DNA of 62,119 bases from an uncultured Lachnospiraceae bacterium (GTDB lineage: Bacteria > Bacillota > Clostridia > Lachnospirales > Lachnospiraceae): positions 1 through 62,119 of the forward strand of contig CADATP010000003.1 in the NCBI GenBank assembly GCA_902790935.1, in the 5' to 3' direction. Under the pieces are notes generated by a model. That model made no database searches. It was not told where the DNA came from and worked only from the letters and a program-made list of their open reading frames with translations. How positions within the stretch are numbered: position 1 is the stretch's first letter; every line of letters starts with the position of its first letter. A program made the position numbers and the translations under genes. Positions 4,658 through 22,043 of the stretch are shown one piece after another.

Positions 4658-4734
4658 ATGCCTTCATCTATGCGATTTGTCCGAATTTTTATATAATTTT
4701 CAGAATTTTTATCCTAATATTTGTTTGCAAAAAG

Positions 4735-4743
4735 TGATATAAT
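4735..4743 (+). promoter_or_regulatory. Extended -10 promoter of the H-cluster chemoreceptor gene
   Basis: TGATATAAT at 4735-4743 is a TG-extended perfect -10, without a clear -35 box. It sits in the same 11-base context as the promoter of the EAL gene (141-151). The predicted start is near 4750, about 50 bases before the ATG. Confidence 0.6.
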
Positions 4744-4801
4744 CCTCTTATTGATAAAAATTTACCTTTTTATGGGAACGAAGGTGGATAGGAGAAGAAT
4801 T

Positions 4802-6754
4802 ATGTTAGGAAACGGACTTGTTTTTACCAATGACAAATGTGTCGGATGTAACAAATGTATCAGTGTCTGTAGCGCCATGGGTGCCTGCGTATCTGAAGAA
4901 CCGGACGAAAACGGAAAGTCCCGGATTGACGTAGACGGTGACAGATGTATAGCCTGCGGTGCCTGCTTTGATGTCTGCATGCACGGCGCAAGAGAGTATC
5001 TTGATGATACCGAAAGATTCTTCGAAGACCTGAAAAAGGGAGAAAGCATCTCTGTACTTATCGCTCCCGCTTTCAAGGCGAATTACCCGGATGAATATGA
5101 ATCTGTGCTGGGAGGCTTAAAAGCTTTAGGCGTAAAGCGATTTATAAGCGTATCCTTTGGTGCGGATATTACTACCTGGGGCTATATCAACTATATTCAG
5201 AAAAACAACTTCCTCGGCGGCATTTCTCAGCCTTGCCCCGCTGTTGTAGGATATATTGAAAGATATATGCCCGAACTTATTCCCGATCTTTTCCCCGTAC
5301 AAAGCCCTATGATGTGTACCGCGATTTATGCAAAGAAGCAGATGGGCATTACGGACAAACTCGCATTCATCAGCCCCTGTATAGCTAAAAAAATGGAGAT
5401 CGACGATCCCAACAACAACAAGGGATATATTTCTTATAATGTAACCTTCGATCATCTTATGGAGTATGTACGTAAGAATAACGTAAAGGGTGCTCCCTGC
5501 AGCGATGAGATTGAATACGGACTCGGATCCATCTACCCTACTCCCGGCGGACTTAAGGAAAATGTTTACTGGCTCCTTGGAGAAAGCGTATTTATCCGCC
5601 AGATCGAGGGCGAAAAGAGGATGTACCATTTCCTTAAGGAAAACAAGAACAGGATCACATCCAAAAAGACCCCTTATCTGTTTATCGACGCCTTAAACTG
5701 CGAGAATGGTTGTATCTGCGGAACGGGTACGGATCCTGAAATCTCAGAGACGGATAATGCGCTCTACGCTCTTCTTAATATAAGAGAATCTGTTAAAAAG
5801 AGCGGAAAGAAGGGAGCCTGGGCAAAGAACAATACTCCCGAAAAGAGACTTGCCGCGTTAAACAAACAGTTTGCAAATCTTAATCTCGATGATTATCTGA
5901 GAAAATATACCGACAAATCAAAGAGCTGTCCTATCAAGACTCCTTCAAACGCCGATCTTGACCGTATCTTCAATGATATGATGAAAAAGGATGAGGAGTC
6001 GAGAAATATCAACTGCTCCTGCTGCGGATACGATACCTGCAAGGATATGGCTACAGCTATCTTTAACGGATTTAACCACAAGGATAACTGTGTTCACTAC
6101 CTGAAGGGTCTTGTTGAGGAAGAAAGGGAGAACGCTCAGACGCTTGTTGTTGAGGAAAGAAAGCAGCTTGATGCGCAAAAGGAAGCTCTCTTTGAGACCA
6201 TCAGAGTTGTCAACGAGAATTTCGATACGTTAAGGCAATCCATCGACGAGATGGTAGGCGGAAACGATATGAATGCCCAGGAAAGCACGGGCATCTCGCA
6301 GGATGTGGGAAATGTGGAAGAATTCTGCCATACTATGAAGGAGTCCATGGGCGGTATCCTTGAAGCTCTCCAGGAATTACAGACAAGCAACGAGAGAGTT
6401 GTTGATATCGCTTCACAGACAAATCTCCTTGCGCTCAACGCTTCCATAGAGGCGGCGAGAGCCGGAGAAGCGGGCAGGGGCTTTGCAGTCGTTGCGGATG
6501 AGATAAATCATCTCGCTTCCGATTCAAGGGCTACAGCCGAGGGAACAGCGGTTAACAACAATGCCATCAAGGTAGCGGTTGACGCTATGGTGGAGAATAT
6601 CTCAAAACTTCTTGAGATCGTTAACACCGTAAATTCAAGAACTCAGAATCTTGCGGCTTCAACCGAGGAGATTTCGGCTTCTACCACGCTCATCCTTGAG
6701 ACAGTAGACAGTGTGGGACGCGAACTCGAAAAACTGGCTTCACAGGCCGAATGA
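4802..6754 (+). CDS. Cytoplasmic [FeFe]-hydrogenase-like sensor with chemoreceptor signalling domain
   Basis: The start is the ATG at 4802 behind AGGAGA, giving 650 residues and no membrane segment. In order there are two [4Fe-4S] ferredoxin motifs ([11 protein letters not shown] and [11 protein letters not shown], residues 13-60), a hydrogenase H-cluster domain (about 80-330), a further Cys motif [10 protein letters not shown] (404-413) and a C-terminal methyl-accepting signalling hairpin with [19 protein letters not shown]-cluster ligands can be assigned as Cys145, Cys193 and Cys300/Cys304, with PCIAK keeping the active-site lysine. The usual TSCCP loop reads SQPCP, so the proton-relay cysteine (Cys299 in clostridial CpI) is replaced by proline. 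This suggests a redox, H2 or CO sensor that signals to a CheA-type kinase rather than a working hydrogenase. No hydrogenase maturase genes are nearby. Confidence 0.88.
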
Positions 6755-13263: not shown

Positions 13264-13427
13264 AGAGGGAAAAGAAAGTCCGATAAGCTTATATGAAATG
13301 GAAACCAAAAGGCTTTATTCCGATTTCGGACATTTAAAGGTTGCTTTAATCGGGAATATGTGAGAAAATAAATCGTTGTAGTCTGCCCGGATTATCTTTT
13401 ATGGGGGCTGCAAGCCTGGAGAAAACT

Positions 13428-14171
13428 ATGAAGATTTTGCTCTTAAACGGAAGCCTCAGAGGCGGCAGAAGCTCATCCCTTAAGGTAGCACATGCTTTCA
13501 TTAACGGAATTCTTGAAGCAGTTCCGGATGCCGAGGTTACAGAGGTTGCCCTTAAGGATAAAAAAATTGAACATTGCATGGGGTGCCTTTGCTGCTGGAA
13601 AAACGAAAAAGGCAAGTGCATCATCCATGATGATATGGACGAGATCAGAGATCTTGTAATGGACAGTGATGTGATCATCGAGAGCTTCCCACTTTACTTT
13701 TTTGGACAGCCCTCAAAGATGAAGGCCTTTGTTGACCGTATGATCTCCTATGTATCCGAGTACAGAGGCGTGGGAGGCAACGAAGAAAGCGGCAGCTTCC
13801 TTCACAAAATGCGTTACCCGGAGCTTATGCAAAAAAAGCTTGTACTTGTTTCAAGCTGCGGATATGAAAAGACTGAAGGCTGTTACGGCCCTATAAAGCA
13901 GCAGTATGATATTATCTGCGGCGAAGGAAACTACACTCTCATCACCTGTGCTCAGGGCGGTATGATCGCTGAAGAGACCTTACAGTCAAAGGTAGAGAAA
14001 TATTTAGTCAGATTCACTGAAGCCGGAAAAGAATTTGCCCGTGAGGGAAAAGTCAGCGAGGAAACCCTTGCGAAGCTTGCAATCCCTATGCTCGGACATA
14101 ATACATTTGAGAAGATAATAAACCTCAACTGGGACGATCCCAATGTCGGTCCTTACGGCAGAAAGGGTTAG
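13428..14171 (+). CDS. Flavodoxin-fold NAD(P)H oxidoreductase with iron-sulfur motif
   Basis: The start is taken as the ATG at 13428 behind CTGGAGA; an upstream ATG at 13401 lacks a site. The 247-residue product begins MKILLLNGSLRGGRSSSLK, the FMN-binding loop of the NADPH-dependent FMN reductase / iron-sulfur flavoprotein family. Residues 50-64 (HCMGCLCCWKNEKGKC) contain a CX2CX2CX7C pattern, followed by DDM, consistent with a [4Fe-4S] cluster as in iron-sulfur flavoproteins. It probably moves electrons between NAD(P)H or ferredoxin and an unknown acceptor. Two bases after its stop lies the acyltransferase gene, so the two are co-transcribed and it may serve the acyl-chain cluster that follows. 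Confidence 0.8.
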   Translation: MKILLLNGSLRGGRSSSLKVAHAFINGILEAVPDAEVTEVALKDKKIEHCMGCLCCWKNEKGKCIIHDDMDEIRDLVMDSDVIIESFPLYFFGQPSKMKAFVDRMISYVSEYRGVGGNEESGSFLHKMRYPELMQKKLVLVSSCGYEKTEGCYGPIKQQYDIICGEGNYTLITCAQGGMIAEETLQSKVEKYLVRFTEAGKEFAREGKVSEETLAKLAIPMLGHNTFEKIINLNWDDPNVGPYGRKG

Positions 14172-14173
14172 AG

Positions 14174-14818
14174 ATGTCTTTTATAAATGCGATTTTAAAA
14201 GGGATAGCAAAATTTCTGTTTTGGGCATCCTACCCTGTTTTGAGATTTATCTACCCTATGAAGATCCACTTTGAGGACAAGCCTGAAACGGAAGAAGCGC
14301 TCGCTAAAAGCTGCGTTGTCTTTTCTAACCATCTTGGATACGTAGAAGGGCTTTTTATGACAAGGCTTTTGAAAAAATACAGGGTGTGGACCTTTGTCGG
14401 TAAGGACTGGTACGACAAAAAGCCGATAAACTGGCTCTTCAGAAACCTTCCCTATATCTCCATCGACAGAAAGAGCGGGCTCGATACCGAGTGGCTTGAT
14501 ACTACTAAGGAGATAATGGCAGGTGGATCCTCCGTATATATTCTTCCGGAGGGACATACAAGTCCTGCGGGATCTATGGATACTTTTAAGCCGGGATTTC
14601 TTGTGCTTGCAAAGCAAACAGGCGCTACGCCGGTTCCCATATTTATAAGCCGCAAGATCAAGCCTTTCAGACTTACGCATCTTGTTATCGGTAAGCCAAT
14701 GGTTATGGACCTTAATGAAAAAGGCAGACCCTCACAGGTACTTAAGAAGTACTGCGAGGAATGCAGGTCTTATGTGGAGGGACTCGGAGATAAGCTCTCC
14801 CACGGGGAGATTAAATAG
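14174..14818 (+). CDS. PlsC-like lysophospholipid acyltransferase, atypical catalytic motif
   Basis: This 214-residue protein belongs to the glycerophosphate/lysophospholipid acyltransferase fold. It has a hydrophobic N-terminus (IAKFLFWASYPVLRFIYP) for membrane association, the acceptor-site block SNHLGYVEG and the PEGHTS block. The usual catalytic motif is HX4D; here it is His53-X4-Glu58, and the usual PEGTR reads PEGHTS. Such changes occur in clostridial relatives, but they leave open whether the acceptor is lysophosphatidate or something else. It lies between a redox flavoprotein (2-base gap) and an acyl carrier protein, suggesting that it transfers acyl groups made by the following genes. 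Confidence 0.8.
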   Translation: MSFINAILKGIAKFLFWASYPVLRFIYPMKIHFEDKPETEEALAKSCVVFSNHLGYVEGLFMTRLLKKYRVWTFVGKDWYDKKPINWLFRNLPYISIDRKSGLDTEWLDTTKEIMAGGSSVYILPEGHTSPAGSMDTFKPGFLVLAKQTGATPVPIFISRKIKPFRLTHLVIGKPMVMDLNEKGRPSQVLKKYCEECRSYVEGLGDKLSHGEIK

Positions 14819-14903
14819 ATTATGACCGCTTAGCGGATTCATATAAATGGATATTTATCGTCTGATAGGTGTCCGGAGATTTTTACACGAAAGGAAGTTA
14901 AAA

Positions 14904-15152
14904 ATGAACGAGAAAGAACTTGAAGTAGCAGCTAAGATCAAGAGCATGGTATCAGAGAATCTTAACATTCCTGAAGAAGAGCTTGACTATGAGATTCCCC
15001 TCTTTGGTGAAGGAATCGGACTTGACTCAGTAGATTCACTTGAGATCATTTCATGCATCGACAACGAGTTCGGTGTTGTTATGACAGGTGTTCCCAAGGA
15101 GCATTTCTACAACGTAACCAGCCTTACCAAGTACGTTGTTGAACACATGTAA
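14904..15152 (+). CDS. Acyl carrier protein
   Basis: This 82-residue acidic protein carries acyl chains on a phosphopantetheine arm. The start is the ATG at 14904 behind AAAGGAAG. The four-helix ACP pattern is clear, with the modified serine at Ser42 in GLDSVDSLEI. It differs from housekeeping AcpP, which usually reads GADSLDTVE, so a dedicated ACP is possible. Upstream are the flavoprotein and acyltransferase; downstream, after a 320-base structured spacer, is the ketosynthase. Whether another ACP exists elsewhere in the genome cannot be seen here. Confidence 0.93.
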   Translation: MNEKELEVAAKIKSMVSENLNIPEEELDYEIPLFGEGIGLDSVDSLEIISCIDNEFGVVMTGVPKEHFYNVTSLTKYVVEHM

Positions 15153-15370: not shown

Positions 15371-15472
15371 ATACTAAGAATTTGACACTTTTACTCAAGC
15401 CGGAGCCCTATGGGTAAGCCGGTTAAAAGTTGTGTTTATAAATATATTTATTATTTTACAGGAGTAAATAAA

Positions 15473-17851
15473 ATGAATAAGCCTATTAATACCCGTTGCG
15501 TAGTTACCGGTCTCGGTATGATCAATGCTATCGGAAACAGCGTGGATGAATGCTGGGACAACGCTCTTATCGGAAAAGAAGGAATTGACGTTGTAAAGTC
15601 GGTTAATGCCGATGAGTGCTACGCTAATCTCGGCGCAGAAGTTGACTGCGATGAGCTTGACAAGTACGAAGGCGTTGACAGAGCTTCCAAGCTTTGCCTT
15701 AAGGCTTCTGAAGAAGCTTTCAAGGATGCCGGGATCGATATGAAGAATGAAGATGCCACAAGATTCGGTGTAATCATGGGAAGCTGTGTCGGCGGCGTAG
15801 TAAGTATCGACAATTACGTAGCTAACGGCGAGAAGACCGAAGACATCAGAAAGATGACCATCTCCCCAATTGCTAACCACGTTGCAAACATGGTTGGTGC
15901 ATGCGGAGTTATTTCAAACGTAGGTAATGCCTGTGCGGCAGGAAGCATCAGCGTAGCGTACGCATGCGAGCTTATCCGTGCCGGAGTTGCTGATATGTTT
16001 ATCGTCGGAGGCGCTGACGCTTTTGCAGCAGTTCCCTTTGCCGGATTCCATGCGCTTCACGCTCTTTCCGAGAAGCCCTGCTCACCTTTCAACCACTCAA
16101 ACGGAATCACTCTCGGTGAAGGTGCCGGAGCAATCGTTGTTGAGTCATATGAGCACGCTAAAAAGAGAAATGCCAAGATTTACTGTGACGTACTTGCAGC
16201 AGGTGTCAGCAGCGATGCACACCACATCACAGCGCCCAGACCCGACGGAATCGGACAGATGTATGCTATCCGTACCGCAATCGCTAATTCCGGCATTAAG
16301 CCTGAAGATATCGGATATGTTAATGCTCACGGAACAGGAACCGCTAAAAATGACGAGGCGGAGTTCCTTTCACTTCATGCGATCTTCGACGATGTAAACG
16401 ACGATCTCTCTGTAAGCTCCACTAAGGCAATGGTTGGACACTGCCTCGGTGCAGCAGGAGCTATCGAAGCGGTATATGCGATCAAGGCTCTTACAACAGA
16501 CATCATTCCTCCCACCATCGGTTATACCGAGGAGGATCTTGAGGCTCTTAAGGAAAAGGCAGGAAAGATTGACTTTATGCCTAACAAAAAGAGAGAAAAG
16601 AAGCTTGATTACGTTATGAGCAACTCTTTCGCATTCGGTGGAAGCAATGCAAGTATCATCTTCTCAAAGGGTGAAGGAAACGTAGCCGAGGTTTGCAATG
16701 ACGAGCCCATCTATATTACAGGTATGGGTATTGTCAGCCCTCTCGGAAACGGTGTTTCCAACTATATCGAGAAGGTTAAGGCAGGAGAGACTATTGACAG
16801 TAATTCAGTTTTCTCCGAGACCACCAAGGAAGATTATGATAAGTATGACGTAAAGATGGCATTTTACCGTAAGCTTGATAAGCTTTCTCTTATGCAGGTT
16901 GTTTCCGGCCTTGAGGCCCTTGAGAGCGCAGGAATCGAGATCGCAGACGACAAGGCTGAGGATTACGGTATGATCATCGGTACCGATGACGGACCTCTTA
17001 CCACAGTTTACAAGTTCCAGGAGAACATCAATACAAACGGTACAAAGAGCGGATCTGCATTCAACTTCCCCAATACAGTTTACAATGCAGCCGGCGGATA
17101 TCTTTCAATCAAGACAAATATGCGCGGCGTAAACGTAACCGTAACCAACGGCGCTCAGTCAGGTATGAGCTCACTTTGCTACGCTTACAATGAGATCCGC
17201 CAGAACCATGCAAAGGTTATGCTTGCCACCGGTACTGACGAGAACAGCGATGTTATGGAAAAGCTTTATCGCCAGCTCGGAAGCGTTGCCAAAGGAAAGG
17301 CAGAGCTTTACAAGAATACAGGTATGGCAATGAGCGACGGAAGTACAACTGTTGTACTTGAAAGCGCAGAGAGCGCAAACGCAAGAGGTGCTAAGAAGTA
17401 CGCACAGGTCGCAGGATACGGTATGACCCACGCCGTTACCGAGTACGGTAAGGTAGCCGGAACCGATAAGGGACTTGAGGATGCCATCGCCATCGCACTT
17501 AAGGATGCAGGAATCACTGTTTCCGATATCGATGCAGTTTACGGCTTCGGAAACGGTGAAGAAGCAGTTGATAATATCGAAAAGAACGTATACGGAAAGC
17601 TCATCGGAGCAAAGACCCCCGTTCACAACGTAAGAGCATATGTCGGAGAAAGCCGCAGCGCAGCCTGCGCTCTTTCAATCGCTACTGCAGCCCTTACTTT
17701 AAGCGGTGAGCTTGGTTCAGAGCAGAAAGCATTCTTCTTCGGAGATACAGTTACTGAAGGAAAGGCTGATACTTCAGCTTATAAGTATGTACTTGCAACA
17801 GCAGGTTCCGAAGGCGGATCCTACTGCGCTGTTGTACTTAAGAAGGCTTAA
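15473..17851 (+). CDS. Tandem ketosynthase: active KS fused to a catalytically dead, CLF-like KS
   Basis: The start is the ATG at 15473 behind ACAGGAG; the product has 792 residues, twice the size of FabF. The first half (about 1-405) is a full beta-ketoacyl-ACP synthase with nucleophile Cys154 in NACAAG, His286 in NAHGTGT and His323 in GHCLGAAGA. The second half (about 412-792) has the same fold landmarks (PIYITGMGIVSPLG, ATAGSEGGSYCAVVL) but reads NGAQSG at 559-564, so the Cys is missing and a Gln (562) sits next to it. Neither histidine motif survives (GFGNGE and ESRSAACAL). A condensing KS beside a Cys-to-Gln partner is the hallmark of KS-alpha/chain-length-factor pairs; here both are in one chain. 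It probably elongates an ACP-bound chain whose length the second half sets. Confidence 0.9.
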   Translation: MNKPINTRCVVTGLGMINAIGNSVDECWDNALIGKEGIDVVKSVNADECYANLGAEVDCDELDKYEGVDRASKLCLKASEEAFKDAGIDMKNEDATRFGVIMGSCVGGVVSIDNYVANGEKTEDIRKMTISPIANHVANMVGACGVISNVGNACAAGSISVAYACELIRAGVADMFIVGGADAFAAVPFAGFHALHALSEKPCSPFNHSNGITLGEGAGAIVVESYEHAKKRNAKIYCDVLAAGVSSDAHHITAPRPDGIGQMYAIRTAIANSGIKPEDIGYVNAHGTGTAKNDEAEFLSLHAIFDDVNDDLSVSSTKAMVGHCLGAAGAIEAVYAIKALTTDIIPPTIGYTEEDLEALKEKAGKIDFMPNKKREKKLDYVMSNSFAFGGSNASIIFSKGEGNVAEVCNDEPIYITGMGIVSPLGNGVSNYIEKVKAGETIDSNSVFSETTKEDYDKYDVKMAFYRKLDKLSLMQVVSGLEALESAGIEIADDKAEDYGMIIGTDDGPLTTVYKFQENINTNGTKSGSAFNFPNTVYNAAGGYLSIKTNMRGVNVTVTNGAQSGMSSLCYAYNEIRQNHAKVMLATGTDENSDVMEKLYRQLGSVAKGKAELYKNTGMAMSDGSTTVVLESAESANARGAKKYAQVAGYGMTHAVTEYGKVAGTDKGLEDAIAIALKDAGITVSDIDAVYGFGNGEEAVDNIEKNVYGKLIGAKTPVHNVRAYVGESRSAACALSIATAALTLSGELGSEQKAFFFGDTVTEGKADTSAYKYVLATAGSEGGSYCAVVLKKA

Positions 17852-17874: not shown

Positions 17875-18624
17875 ATGGAAAATGTACAGGAAGTAAAAAC
17901 TGCCCTTGTAACAGGTGCGTCAAGAGGTATAGGCAGAGCCTGCGCCATCGCTCTCGGAAAGGCAGGATATAAGGTAGGAGTTAACTACAACTCCAACGAA
18001 GCCGCTGCACAGGAAGTTGTTAAGGCAATCGAAGAGGCCGGAAGCGAAGCAATCGCCATCAAGGCCAATGCCTCAAATCTTAAGGAAGTACAGGATATGA
18101 TGCGTACCTTCGTTAAGACCTTCGGAAAGATCGATCTTCTTGTAAATAATGCAGGTATCGTTAAGGATGAATATGTTATGATGATGAATCCCGATACCAT
18201 AGATATGTGTCTTGATCTCAATATCAAGGGATATCTCTACTGTTCACAGCAGGCGGCTGTCAAGATGTTCTCCAAGAAGAAGGGATGCATCGTTAACGTT
18301 TCATCCGTCAGCTCTGTACTTGCTGTTCCCGGACAGTCTGTATACAGCTCAACCAAGGGAGCTGTTAACTCTATGACAGCTACTATGGCAAAGGAACTTG
18401 CGCCCTACGGAATCAGAGTAAACGCAGTAGCTCCCGGATTTATCGCTACAGAGATGATCGAGGCAATACCTGAGGAAAAGAGAGAACAGTACATTAAGGA
18501 TATTCCCCTCGGAAGATTCGGAACGGCGGATGAGGTCGCAAATGCGGTAGTTATGCTTGCAAGCGATGCATGCTCATATGTTACCGGACAGGTTCTCGTA
18601 CTTGACGGAGGACTCAGCTTATGA
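17875..18624 (+). CDS. fabG: 3-oxoacyl-ACP reductase (SDR family)
   Basis: This enzyme reduces the beta-keto group made by the ketosynthase, using NAD(P)H. The 249-residue short-chain dehydrogenase has the cofactor loop TGASRGIGRA (residues 13-22), NNAG, the catalytic Ser in VSSVSSV, the YSSTK pair (Tyr-X3-Lys) and a C-terminus ending VLVLDGGLSL, all typical of FabG. It starts 23 bases after the ketosynthase stop and overlaps the dehydratase gene by 4 bases (ATGA). The assignment to acyl-ACP rather than another ketone rests on the context and family resemblance. Confidence 0.92.
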   Translation: MENVQEVKTALVTGASRGIGRACAIALGKAGYKVGVNYNSNEAAAQEVVKAIEEAGSEAIAIKANASNLKEVQDMMRTFVKTFGKIDLLVNNAGIVKDEYVMMMNPDTIDMCLDLNIKGYLYCSQQAAVKMFSKKKGCIVNVSSVSSVLAVPGQSVYSSTKGAVNSMTATMAKELAPYGIRVNAVAPGFIATEMIEAIPEEKREQYIKDIPLGRFGTADEVANAVVMLASDACSYVTGQVLVLDGGLSL

Positions 18625-19064
18625 TGAATATTAACGAGGTTCAAAAGAGGATTAAACAGCGTCCCCCGTTTCAGATGATCGAAAAGATCGTCGAGATAAG
18701 AGACGGAGAGTACGCAAAGGGAATTAAAAACGTATCCATCAATGAGCCCTATTTTATGGGTCATTTCCCTGATACCCCTATAATGCCCGGCGTGCTCCTT
18801 ATCGAAGCAGCTGCACAGCTTTGCTCCGTGACCATAGAGAGCGAAGGGACCGACGAGAGCCTTATCTACGTTCTTCTTAAGGTTGATGAGTTCAAATTTG
18901 TTAAGCCCGTAATTCCCGGTGACGTATGCGAGATCGAAGTAACCAAGACTGCAGGCGGTGCAGGCCTCGTAAAATTCGACGTGAAGATTTCCGTCGACGG
19001 CGCCCTCCGCGCCAAGGGCAAACTCGCTTTCACATCGATGCCCAAGGAAGCGGTATACAATTAA
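18621..19064 (+). CDS. fabZ: 3-hydroxyacyl-ACP dehydratase (FabZ-like hotdog)
   Basis: The 147-residue hotdog protein removes water from 3-hydroxyacyl-ACP to give trans-2-enoyl-ACP. Catalytic His48 in GHFPDTPIMPG and Glu62 in LIEAAAQL match FabZ. The start ATG at 18621 overlaps the fabG stop; a second ATG follows at 18624. Sequence such as RPPFQMIEKIVE near the N-terminus is normal for FabZ. No enoyl reductase gene accompanies it in this block. Downstream lies a 370-base structured spacer before fabD. Confidence 0.9.
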   Translation: MMNINEVQKRIKQRPPFQMIEKIVEIRDGEYAKGIKNVSINEPYFMGHFPDTPIMPGVLLIEAAAQLCSVTIESEGTDESLIYVLLKVDEFKFVKPVIPGDVCEIEVTKTAGGAGLVKFDVKISVDGALRAKGKLAFTSMPKEAVYN

Positions 19065-19406: not shown

Positions 19407-19433
19407 GAGGTGGCGTCAGAGAAAGGAAGAGAC

Positions 19434-20390
19434 ATGTCAAAACGTGTTTTTATGTTTCCCGGCCAGGGAAGCCAGTACATCGGAATGGCGAAGGATTTTT
19501 ACGACGCCTATCCCGAATCAAAGGAAGTTTTTGAGAAGGCAAGCGCAGCCGCAGGATTCTCTGTAGAGCAGCTTTGCTTTGAAGAAAACGAAAAATTAAA
19601 CATTACAGAGTATACCCAGATTTGTATGCTCGCAGCTGAAGCGGCAATCTACGCAGCAGTTGTAAAAGAAGGCATCACATGCGATGTAACCGCAGGTTTA
19701 AGCCTTGGCGAGTACGGAGCACTTATCGCATCCGGTGCACTTACCATGGAGGATGCGTTCAAGGTTGTAAGAAAGCGCGGAATGTTTATGCAGGCGGCTG
19801 TTCCCGAAGGCGGAGCAATGGCTGCTATACTTAACCTTGACCCTTCGGTTGTTGCTGATGTATGCAAGGAAGTACAGGAAGCAGGCCCTGCGGCAGACGC
19901 CGGAAGTTACACACTTCCCTACGTTGTATCCGTAGCTAACTACAACAGCCCTGTACAGATCGTTATTACAGGAAGAGAAGATGCGGTTAAAAAGGCATCA
20001 GATCTTTGCGTTGAGCGCGGCGCAAGAAGAGCGGTTCCTCTTAAGGTAAGCGGACCTTTCCATTCAGCTCTCTTAGAGGGCGCAGGAAAGCAGCTCGGCG
20101 AAGTGCTTGAAACCGTTACCATAAACGACATTAAAGTTCCTTATCTTGCAAACGTTAATGCAGATTATGTAACGGACAGCACGCAGGTTAAGCCTCTACT
20201 TACAGCACAGGTTTCATCATCAGTTAGGTGGCAGCAGACTCTCGAAAGACTTCTTGCTGACGGAGCAGACGAGTTTGTGGAGATCGGACCCGGAAGCACA
20301 CTTACAGGTTTTGTTAAGAAGCTTAACAAAGATGTTAAGACAGTGAATATTGAAAAGTTAGAAGACCTTAAGGCATATCTCGAGGCATAG
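19434..20390 (+). CDS. fabD: Malonyl-CoA:ACP transacylase
   Basis: FabD loads malonyl groups onto ACP for chain elongation. The start is the ATG at 19434 behind AAAGGAAGAG; a GTG at 19410 lies in the RNA stem. The 318-residue product has FPGQGSQYIGM near the N-terminus, nucleophile Ser90 in AGLSLGEYGAL (the common form is GHSLGEY) and catalytic His210 in SGPFHSALL. Length and ending are normal. It is followed within 10 bases by accDA. Confidence 0.93.
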   Translation: MSKRVFMFPGQGSQYIGMAKDFYDAYPESKEVFEKASAAAGFSVEQLCFEENEKLNITEYTQICMLAAEAAIYAAVVKEGITCDVTAGLSLGEYGALIASGALTMEDAFKVVRKRGMFMQAAVPEGGAMAAILNLDPSVVADVCKEVQEAGPAADAGSYTLPYVVSVANYNSPVQIVITGREDAVKKASDLCVERGARRAVPLKVSGPFHSALLEGAGKQLGEVLETVTINDIKVPYLANVNADYVTDSTQVKPLLTAQVSSSVRWQQTLERLLADGADEFVEIGPGSTLTGFVKKLNKDVKTVNIEKLEDLKAYLEA

Positions 20391-20399
20391 AGGTTTAAG

Positions 20400-22043
20400 A
20401 TGGGAAACAATGTTGAAACATGCCCCGGCTGTAAAGCTGAGGTTGAGTGGTCCAAAGTAAAGGAGAACAATTATGTTTGTCCTGAATGCGGAAGACTTTT
20501 TAGGGTATGGACCGACAATAGAATAAAAATGATTGCCGATCAGGGAACATTTGAAGAAATGTTTAGCGAGATCGGAACAACAAATGTACTCGGAACTCCC
20601 GAGTATGAAGAAAAATTCAAACAGGCTCAGGAAAAGACAGGACTTTCGGAAGGCGTAACCGTTGGCAAGTGCCTCATCGGAGGACATGAAGCCGCCCTTG
20701 GAGTTATAGATTCAAGATTCCTTATGGGAAGTATGGGACACGCGGTCGGCGACCGTATCACAAGCGTAGTTGAATACGCTACAAAGGAAAAACTTCCCGT
20801 TATTCTTTTCTGCTGTTCGGGCGGAGCAAGAATGCAGGAGGGTATAGTTTCTCTTATGCAGATGGAGAAAACATCCGCTGCCTTGAAGAAACATTCGGAA
20901 GCCGGACTTTTATATATTTCAGTTTTGACAGACCCGACAACCGGCGGAGTTACCGCAAGCTTTGCGATGCTTGGAGATATTATCCTCGCGGAGCCCGACG
21001 CTATGATCGGATTCGCCGGACCCAGAGTTATTGAACAGACTATCGGCGAGAAGCTTCCTGAGGGCTTCCAGAGAGCGGAGTTCCAGCTCGAGCATGGTTT
21101 TGTAGACAGGGTTGTGGAGAGAAAAGATTTAAAACCCACTTTGGTTAAAATTCTTGAAATCCACTCAAAGAAGGGCAAGTACGCTGATTTCAAAGAATCA
21201 GATGAAAAGGTGTACTACGGACCTACCGAGATCATGAAGGAGCGTGCCGCAAAGGCAGAGACTCTTTCAGCCTGGCAGAAGGTTCAGGAAGCCAGAAAGG
21301 TATCAAGACTTGGTGCTGCCGAGTATATAGGAGCGATCTTTGACGACTTTATAGAGCTCCACGGAGACAGATATTTCAGAGATGATCCGGCTATTATGGG
21401 CGGTATCGCTTATCTTGACGGTCAGCCGGTTACCGTGATCGGCGTAAACAGAGGACGAAGCTTTGATGAGTGCCGGGCACACAATTTCGGTATGCCCTCA
21501 CCTGAAGGATACAGAAAAGCTTTAAGACTTATGAAACAGGCGGAAAAGTTCGGACGCCCTATTATTACATTTGTTAATACTTCCGGAGCATATCCCGGTA
21601 AGGAAGCCGAGGAAAACGGTCAGGGAGAAGCGATTGCAAGAAACCTTTTTGAAATGTCTTCTCTTAAGACCCCGGTTCTTGCCATAATGATCGGAGAAGG
21701 CGGAAGCGGCGGAGCTATTGCCCTTGCTGTCGGAAATGAAGTATGGATGACGGAGAATGCAATCTATTCGATCCTCTCACCCGAGGGATTCTCTTCTATC
21801 CTATGGAAGGACGGAAGCCGTAAGGAAGAAGCTTCTGAGGTTATGAAGATTACCGCGCAGGATCTCAAAAAGCTCGGAGTTATTGAGGAGATCATTCCCG
21901 AATACGGCGGAGCTGATGAGGCGGCTTTATCCTCTATTGCCAGCGATATGAAGGGCAGAATCAGAGCATTCCTTACAAAGGTAGAAGGAAAGAGCGGCGA
22001 GCAGCTTGCCGAGGAAAGATACGCTCGGTTTAGAAAGTTTTAA
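20400..22043 (+). CDS. accDA: Acetyl-CoA carboxylase carboxyltransferase, fused beta-alpha subunits
   Basis: This protein moves CO2 from carboxybiotin to acetyl-CoA, making malonyl-CoA. AccD and AccA, separate in most bacteria, are joined here in one 547-residue chain. The beta part (1 to about 265) starts with a C4 zinc ribbon (Cys8, Cys11, Cys27, Cys30) and has SGGARMQEG; the alpha part (about 285-547) has [15 protein letters not shown] and [11 protein letters not shown]. Such fusions are known in Clostridia. The biotin carrier (AccB) and biotin carboxylase (AccC) are not in the window and must be encoded elsewhere. Last member of the acyl-chain block. Confidence 0.94.

Follow-up and report, generated by a model that had tools for sequence, protein, structure and literature searches.

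A conserved ketosynthase-chain length factor fusion in a discrete acyl-synthase gene set of anaerobic bacteria

Two ketosynthase units in one protein

Here we describe a gene in a 62,119-nucleotide stretch of DNA from an uncultured Lachnospiraceae bacterium (contig CADATP010000003.1; hereafter the window, meaning the whole stretch analysed). The gene lies on the plus strand at 15473..17851 and encodes a 792-residue protein in which an active ketosynthase (KS; residues 1-403) is joined to a catalytically dead ketosynthase fold (residues 409-792) resembling a chain length factor (CLF). We conclude that this is a real and conserved single-chain KS-CLF, encoded within a discrete acyl-synthase gene set of anaerobes. 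An AGGAG sequence resembling a Shine-Dalgarno site lies just 5' of the ATG at 15473, where the alignment of relatives also begins; an alternative in-frame ATG is present upstream, at 15410. A promoter scan was uninformative (11 sites vs 12.8 expected).

Pfam places the ketoacyl-synt N and C domains twice each in the protein, NCBIfam likewise finds two ketosynthase units, and there is no other domain; PfaC, in contrast, is part of a multidomain megasynthase. The two full KS-length units described in the first-pass annotation are thus borne out, as are the residues it had assigned. The first half carries Cys154, His286 and His323, together with Lys318, while the second has NGAQSG at the nucleophile site, with Ala561 as the nucleophile equivalent and Gln562 next to it, and has lost both histidine motifs (GFGNG at the first-histidine site of FabF and GESR at the second). 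The FabF model gives 363.6 bits on half 1 and 133.5 bits on half 2. Taken whole, the fusion scores 488.2 bits with the FabF model TIGR03150, slightly under the cut-off of 493.75, and passes the looser subfamily model NF005589 (463 vs 387). Moreover, the same fusion is present in 16/16 aligned proteins, the window's and 15 others, nine of which are 71-98% identical to it and the rest 50-59%. Because both halves score with the FabF model and the fusion is common to all these proteins, the double ketosynthase is not a product of chance.

Other identities for the second half were considered. A thiolase, which would have undone the original proposal, is ruled out, as the matches are ketosynthases with FabF at the top. 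A malonyl decarboxylase of the KSQ type is unlikely because neither histidine is left; the lysine site of this half holds Arg in the window protein and Lys in several relatives. A phage origin of the fusion found no support, with no PHROG family matched. Of 30 phage records matched, the 10 listed are 30.6-32.6% identical, and we read these as host FabF within phage bins.

In the AlphaFold model the fusion forms one confident pseudo-dimer (pLDDT 92, pTM 0.94), in which half 1 superposes closely on FabF and half 2 is predicted to adopt a KS fold. A Foldseek search with the whole model returned as the best PDB match spanning both halves 6riw, the KS-CLF didomain of PfaC. On this predicted architecture the 792-residue protein is a single-chain KS-CLF, as had been proposed from the sequence, and here a discrete enzyme.

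Conservation and relation to known ketosynthases

One scan of GTDB genome contigs yielded 273 relatives, and the 80 best were retained as named loci. By record title these 80 comprise 63 Bacillota, nine Spirochaetota, six Mycoplasmatota, one Bacteroidota and one unplaced. The single Bacteroidota record (L095, titled Bacteroides sp.) has a cluster of Lachnospiraceae type at 71% identity and is probably a mislabelled metagenome-assembled genome (MAG). Relatives occur in Lachnospiraceae, Ruminococcus, Treponema, Anaeroplasma and the cultured Lachnospira eligens ATCC 27750, and the fusion gene set spans three phyla of gut and rumen bacteria. Among the best 80 of 273, the closest named relative is a Lachnospiraceae MAG from roe-deer omasum, 98% identical, which supports a gut or rumen anaerobe among the Firmicutes as host, in line with the anaerobic gut-type Firmicute suggested earlier. 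In a same-family sample of 397 genomes, eight have a second half scoring above 180 bits within one long frame of 738-832 residues. Separately, Ruminococcus bromii YE282 (G471) shows 21 FabF-model matches, some in fusion-length frames (790 and 776 residues) and many in very long frames resembling polyketide synthases (PKSs) on contig 52.

Residue conservation was read from an alignment of 62 rows, consisting of the window protein and the 61 sequences without stops or N among 69/80 loci screened. The four catalytic residues of half 1 (Cys, His, Lys, His) are invariant in 62/62 rows. Half 2 lacks the Cys in 61/62 and both His in 62/62; its second-histidine site reads Gly-Glu in 60 rows and Gly-Asp in two. 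Gln562, beside the lost nucleophile, is kept in 58/62, and Ala occupies the nucleophile site in 31/62. In addition, half 2 has invariant positions of its own (R466, K467, D469, G527-F530, T535-G542, R728), and the linker between the halves (residues 399 to 416) measures 15-18 residues across the 62 rows. One of the 15 relatives aligned above, L061, is shorter, at 737 residues, and in Anaeroplasma bactoclasticum (L134) the dead half keeps a Cys, within NGCQSG, with no histidines (1/62).

A quick tree of 68 rows groups the first halves with KS-alpha (support 92), although the AU tests given below also allow FabF; it sets FabF apart as a separate clade (97) and places the second halves in a clade of their own. 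A distant second family of KS-KS fusions (L015 and L016, from G077 and G050), 31% identical and with a different gene set, appears as the sister group of both halves, separately (support 91 and 89), consistent with a single ancient fusion. At two further loci of this distant family, L044 and L046, the neighbours read by eye include ACP, FabZ-like and ABC-transporter genes. Half 1 has an AFGG motif like that of most KS-alpha rows and of ApeO, whereas FabF rows have GFGGH (14/14). The second half shares with CLFs the replacement of His by Glu or Asp, seen in all 6 Streptomyces and G077 CLF rows. The fold is that of FabF, to which half 1 is 31-46% identical in most comparisons; ordinary type II fatty-acid synthases (FAS), however, have neither the fused dead partner nor a cluster such as the window's, in which no enoyl reductase was found. 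Thus the protein is distinct from ordinary FabF in architecture and motifs, as the first-pass annotation had claimed.

Several known systems pair an active ketosynthase with a dead one. The polyunsaturated fatty acid (PUFA) synthase PfaC resembles our protein in carrying KS and then CLF on one chain, but the didomain described here is a free enzyme beside separate genes for acyl carrier protein (ACP), ketoreductase, dehydratase and malonyl transacylase. An intramolecular dimer has been proposed for PUFA synthases, according to PMC13311796. The discrete KS-CLF heterodimers of actinorhodin (1tqy) and ishigamide (Iga11-Iga12, 6kxd), to which we add 9s5h as read from its two chains, likewise have a Cys-less partner, encoded there by a second gene and here by the same one. 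The actinorhodin CLF (1tqy_B) has Gln at the position of the lost Cys, a choice seen in 0/62 of our rows, where the Gln stands one residue on. The aryl polyene ApeO-ApeC locus of E. coli similarly combines a KS-CLF with genes for ACP, ketoreductase, dehydratase and lysophospholipid acyltransferase; ApeC is, according to PMC8358021, a separate protein of about half the size. However, that locus also has a second KS, LolA and an MMPL transporter, and the Pseudoalteromonas aryl polyene locus has an aromatic ammonia-lyase. Among 21 window proteins scanned around the gene there were no aryl-starter genes, no second KS (ApeR) and no LolA/MMPL export genes, and a second KS near the fusion occurred in 0/79 loci. 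Celluxanthene/yellow affinity substance was considered and set aside as unrelated, since PMC12144888 and PMC11839114 describe a type I iterative PKS.

Among the open-access papers listed, judged by titles and abstract openings, none was recognised as describing a discrete fused KS-CLF, and the words 'fused' and 'fusion' are absent from the main text of the type II PKS catalogue PMC10132072.

The surrounding gene set

The neighbouring genes of the window are all on the plus strand. Upstream lie a flavodoxin-fold flavoprotein (13401..14171; PF02525/PF03358), a lysophospholipid/AGPAT-type acyltransferase (14174..14818; PF01553) and an ACP (14847..15152; Pfam PP-binding). Downstream follow a FabG-type ketoreductase (17875..18624; Pfam/NCBIfam), a FabZ-type dehydratase (18621..19064; NF000582, above cut-off), a FabD malonyl-CoA:ACP transacylase (19410..20390; TIGR00128, above cut-off; true start likely ~19434) and a fused AccD-AccA carboxyltransferase (20400..22043; Pfam/NCBIfam). 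The true start of the ACP is likely ~14904, as a relative's frame (L085) begins MNEKELEV; DS-DS-E around its phosphopantetheine serine is retained in at least 95% of 60 rows. The flavoprotein carries a C-x2-C-x2-C-x7-C motif (C59, C62, C65, C73), which we take to be the compact motif of iron-sulfur flavoproteins, and at least 95% of 67 rows retain its cysteines.

Neighbourhoods were counted at 79/80 named loci (L152 has no labelled fusion frame), 46 of which offer more than 4 kb on both sides, with labels assigned by family or by blastp against a set of 17 reference proteins; one member was checked for each of four family names. FabG accompanies the fusion in 72 of the 79 neighbourhoods, FabZ in 69, the flavoprotein in 66, the ACP in 59, the acyltransferase in 50, and FabD and AccD/A in 41 each. 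Other neighbours are TetR (25), patatin-like proteins (19), PlsX (7), AccB (7), AccC (7) and phosphopantetheinyl transferase (5). The seven loci with AccB and AccC within the cluster are titled Acholeplasmatales (3), Anaeroplasma (2), Clostridium (1) and Bacillales (1). Neither FabK nor a standalone FabF was found near the fusion (0/79 each). Pfam and NCBIfam found no enoyl reductase in the window's cluster, FabI and FabV not having been searched in other loci or genome-wide. In L. eligens ATCC 27750 the gene set lies on a 627-kb replicon with PlsX after it, and the annotation of the 26-kb stretch examined there names no enoyl reductase.

The gap between the ACP and the KS-CLF gene is filled by a Clostridiales-1 RNA (RF01699; 15153..15326, plus strand; 108.4 bits, gathering 48). 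This RNA occurs in 6/25 fusion loci scanned (the window and 24 others), in five of them directly 5' of the KS-CLF gene (the window, L084, L086, L119 and L104); one locus scanned, L087, offers 45 bases upstream of the gene. At L096 the RNA stands in another context, and a TwoAYGGAY RNA lies there between KS-CLF and FabG. A second copy in the window's genome is on a different contig (L176, 10740-10913), and 0/7 canonical FAS loci carry one, so the RNA is dispersed, and any tie to the KS-CLF system is putative.

Possible product and rival explanations

On balance, we lean towards the KS-CLF set being dedicated to making an acyl chain of fixed length, probably unsaturated, that is destined for a lipid. 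Half 1 would condense malonyl-ACP with the growing chain, while half 2 would, by analogy with KS-CLF pairs already described, mould the tunnel and set the chain length. To judge from the gene families, FabG would reduce and FabZ dehydrate each unit, FabD and AccDA would provide malonyl units, the dedicated ACP would hold the chain, and the lysophospholipid-type acyltransferase would pass it to a putative lipid acceptor. Since the window's cluster has no known enoyl reductase, double bonds are probably retained in the chain, unless the iron-sulfur-type flavoprotein, or a FabK encoded elsewhere, reduces them. In the absence of enoyl reduction a conjugated polyene would result, as it does in the aryl polyene and ishigamide pathways. 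A polyene would fit the lack of an enoyl reductase in the cluster, yet neither aryl-starter genes nor the acidic residue of the ishigamide type is present.

Some of our results weigh against this reading. The superposition on 6riw is loose (root-mean-square deviation 7.1, 18% identity), and VIA-align of the whole model gave 50 rows, all first-half matches, with 6riw not among them. Approximately unbiased (AU) tests on 60 rows (8 omitted) reject neither the grouping of the first half with FabF (p 0.51) nor that with KS-alpha (p 0.64). Asp113 of Iga11, which the ishigamide KS uses to release the keto intermediate, corresponds to Val106 here (62/62); PMC8358021 describes ApeO and ApeR as likewise without such an acidic residue. 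In addition, 30 carrier genomes, many of them incomplete MAGs, were tested for both FabF and FabK: 16 have both, four FabF only, two FabK only and eight neither, and in these eight, as in the two without FabF, the fusion may be the housekeeping condensing enzyme.

The set could then be an ordinary membrane fatty-acid synthase, in which KS-CLF stands in for FabF and either FabK or the conserved flavoprotein acts as enoyl reductase. We regard this as unlikely, and still as a live rival because in the window's genome (83% complete) no further FabF was found, nor, beyond the cluster, any of the enzymes that normally accompany it. The first-pass annotation had asked how many other fabF genes exist, and had held that their absence, if the gene were also essential for membrane lipids, would make it a housekeeping enzyme; the first part of that statement is what the FabF model search found. 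A third match to the model (C72, 22 bits) lies in a 399-residue frame that we read by eye as a thiolase. There is likewise no FabK (three matches only, about 20 bits, none above 21), no FabH and no FabZ beyond the cluster copy. The FabG model reaches five other short-chain dehydrogenases/reductases (SDRs): three score 205-225 bits and are best described as one EF-P reductase and a pair of gluconate 5-dehydrogenases, another (62 bits) has a weak family match, and the last scores 23 bits; in none of the first four, which were scanned, was FabG or an enoyl reductase the best fit. Similarly, FabF, FabK, FabH, a second FabZ and AccC were not found in G013 (94% complete), and the FabK-only carriers, G047 (99% complete) and A. 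bactoclasticum (G470), have no FabF. The Anaeroplasma operon carries AccB, AccC, AccD, AccA, FabD and BirA, and PlsX adjoins the fusion at the seven loci noted. Against a housekeeping role, however, stand the 16/30 carriers that retain ordinary FabF and FabK as well, and four same-genus genomes without the fusion (G003, G009, G010, G023) that show no FabK, FabH or FabZ and no FabF of family strength, indicating that loss of FAS is tolerated without this cluster. FakA is present in 19/19 genomes examined, and together with the FAS-poor genomes this suggests that fatty acids taken up from outside may sustain the group, with retention of the cluster not tied to that of the housekeeping synthase. 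The cluster may also feed that synthase, since in G014, G007, G016 and G053 the canonical FabK-FabG-FabF-FabZ set shows no FabD or Acc gene within the locus stretch examined.

The same FakA data bear on another possibility, that the fusion elongates imported fatty acids (via FakAB, PlsX and acyl-ACP) and not chains begun from acetate. A second FakA is found in 8/9 fused same-genus genomes vs 0/8 unfused ones, and stands in an acyl-handling operon at the three loci examined; the lack of FabH in the window's genome and the adjoining PlsX also fit. We nevertheless consider this improbable. The actinorhodin KS-CLF primes by malonyl-ACP decarboxylation, a route with which the loss of FabH is compatible, and the FakA link may reflect shared ancestry, as the second copy is found in 0/2 fused genomes of other genera. 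More improbable by far is a passive tandem duplicate, with half 1 working as a normal FabF homodimer. Its score and close superposition as FabF would suit this, but the dead half is full length and is present in 62/62, with invariant positions of its own, and the model packs the two halves confidently. As to the second-FakA operon itself, Pfam reads it at L173 (4817-13315, G000 contig 47) as AMP-ligase-ACP, LPLAT, ACP, an LRAT-domain protein, an alpha/beta-hydrolase, DegV and FakA, with similar gene order at L174 and L175.

The supply of malonyl units may also be uncommon. No AccC was found in the window's genome at E 1e-40, and the presence of AccDA without it suggests that the carboxyl donor here and in near relatives is unusual. 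The genome's sole Biotin_lipoyl match belongs to a cluster of the Na+-pump decarboxylase type, with OadA, OadB, MmdC-like and MmdA (L197, 5512-11188), and formation of malonyl units by transcarboxylation is possible. One could speculate further, with a good deal of doubt, on an alternative acyl synthase of anaerobes that uses KS-CLF for FabF, an iron-sulfur flavoprotein for FabK/FabI and, where AccBC is missing, oxaloacetate transcarboxylation with a shared biotin carrier for malonyl, has spread between phyla and can outlive the ordinary FAS.

How a dead ketosynthase controls chain length is a central question for both polyketide and fatty-acid biosynthesis, and a free single-chain KS-CLF offers engineers and structural biologists a simpler object than do heterodimers or megasynthases. 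Genomes that keep the cluster yet show no FabF or FabK raise the question of which lipid merits its retention. Because carriers include culture-collection strains and isolates (L. eligens ATCC 27750, A. bactoclasticum ATCC 27112 and R. bromii YE282), the lipid product is directly searchable. Elsewhere in the window, at 4721-6754, an iron-hydrogenase large-subunit domain with ferredoxin motifs is fused to a methyl-accepting chemotaxis signalling domain.
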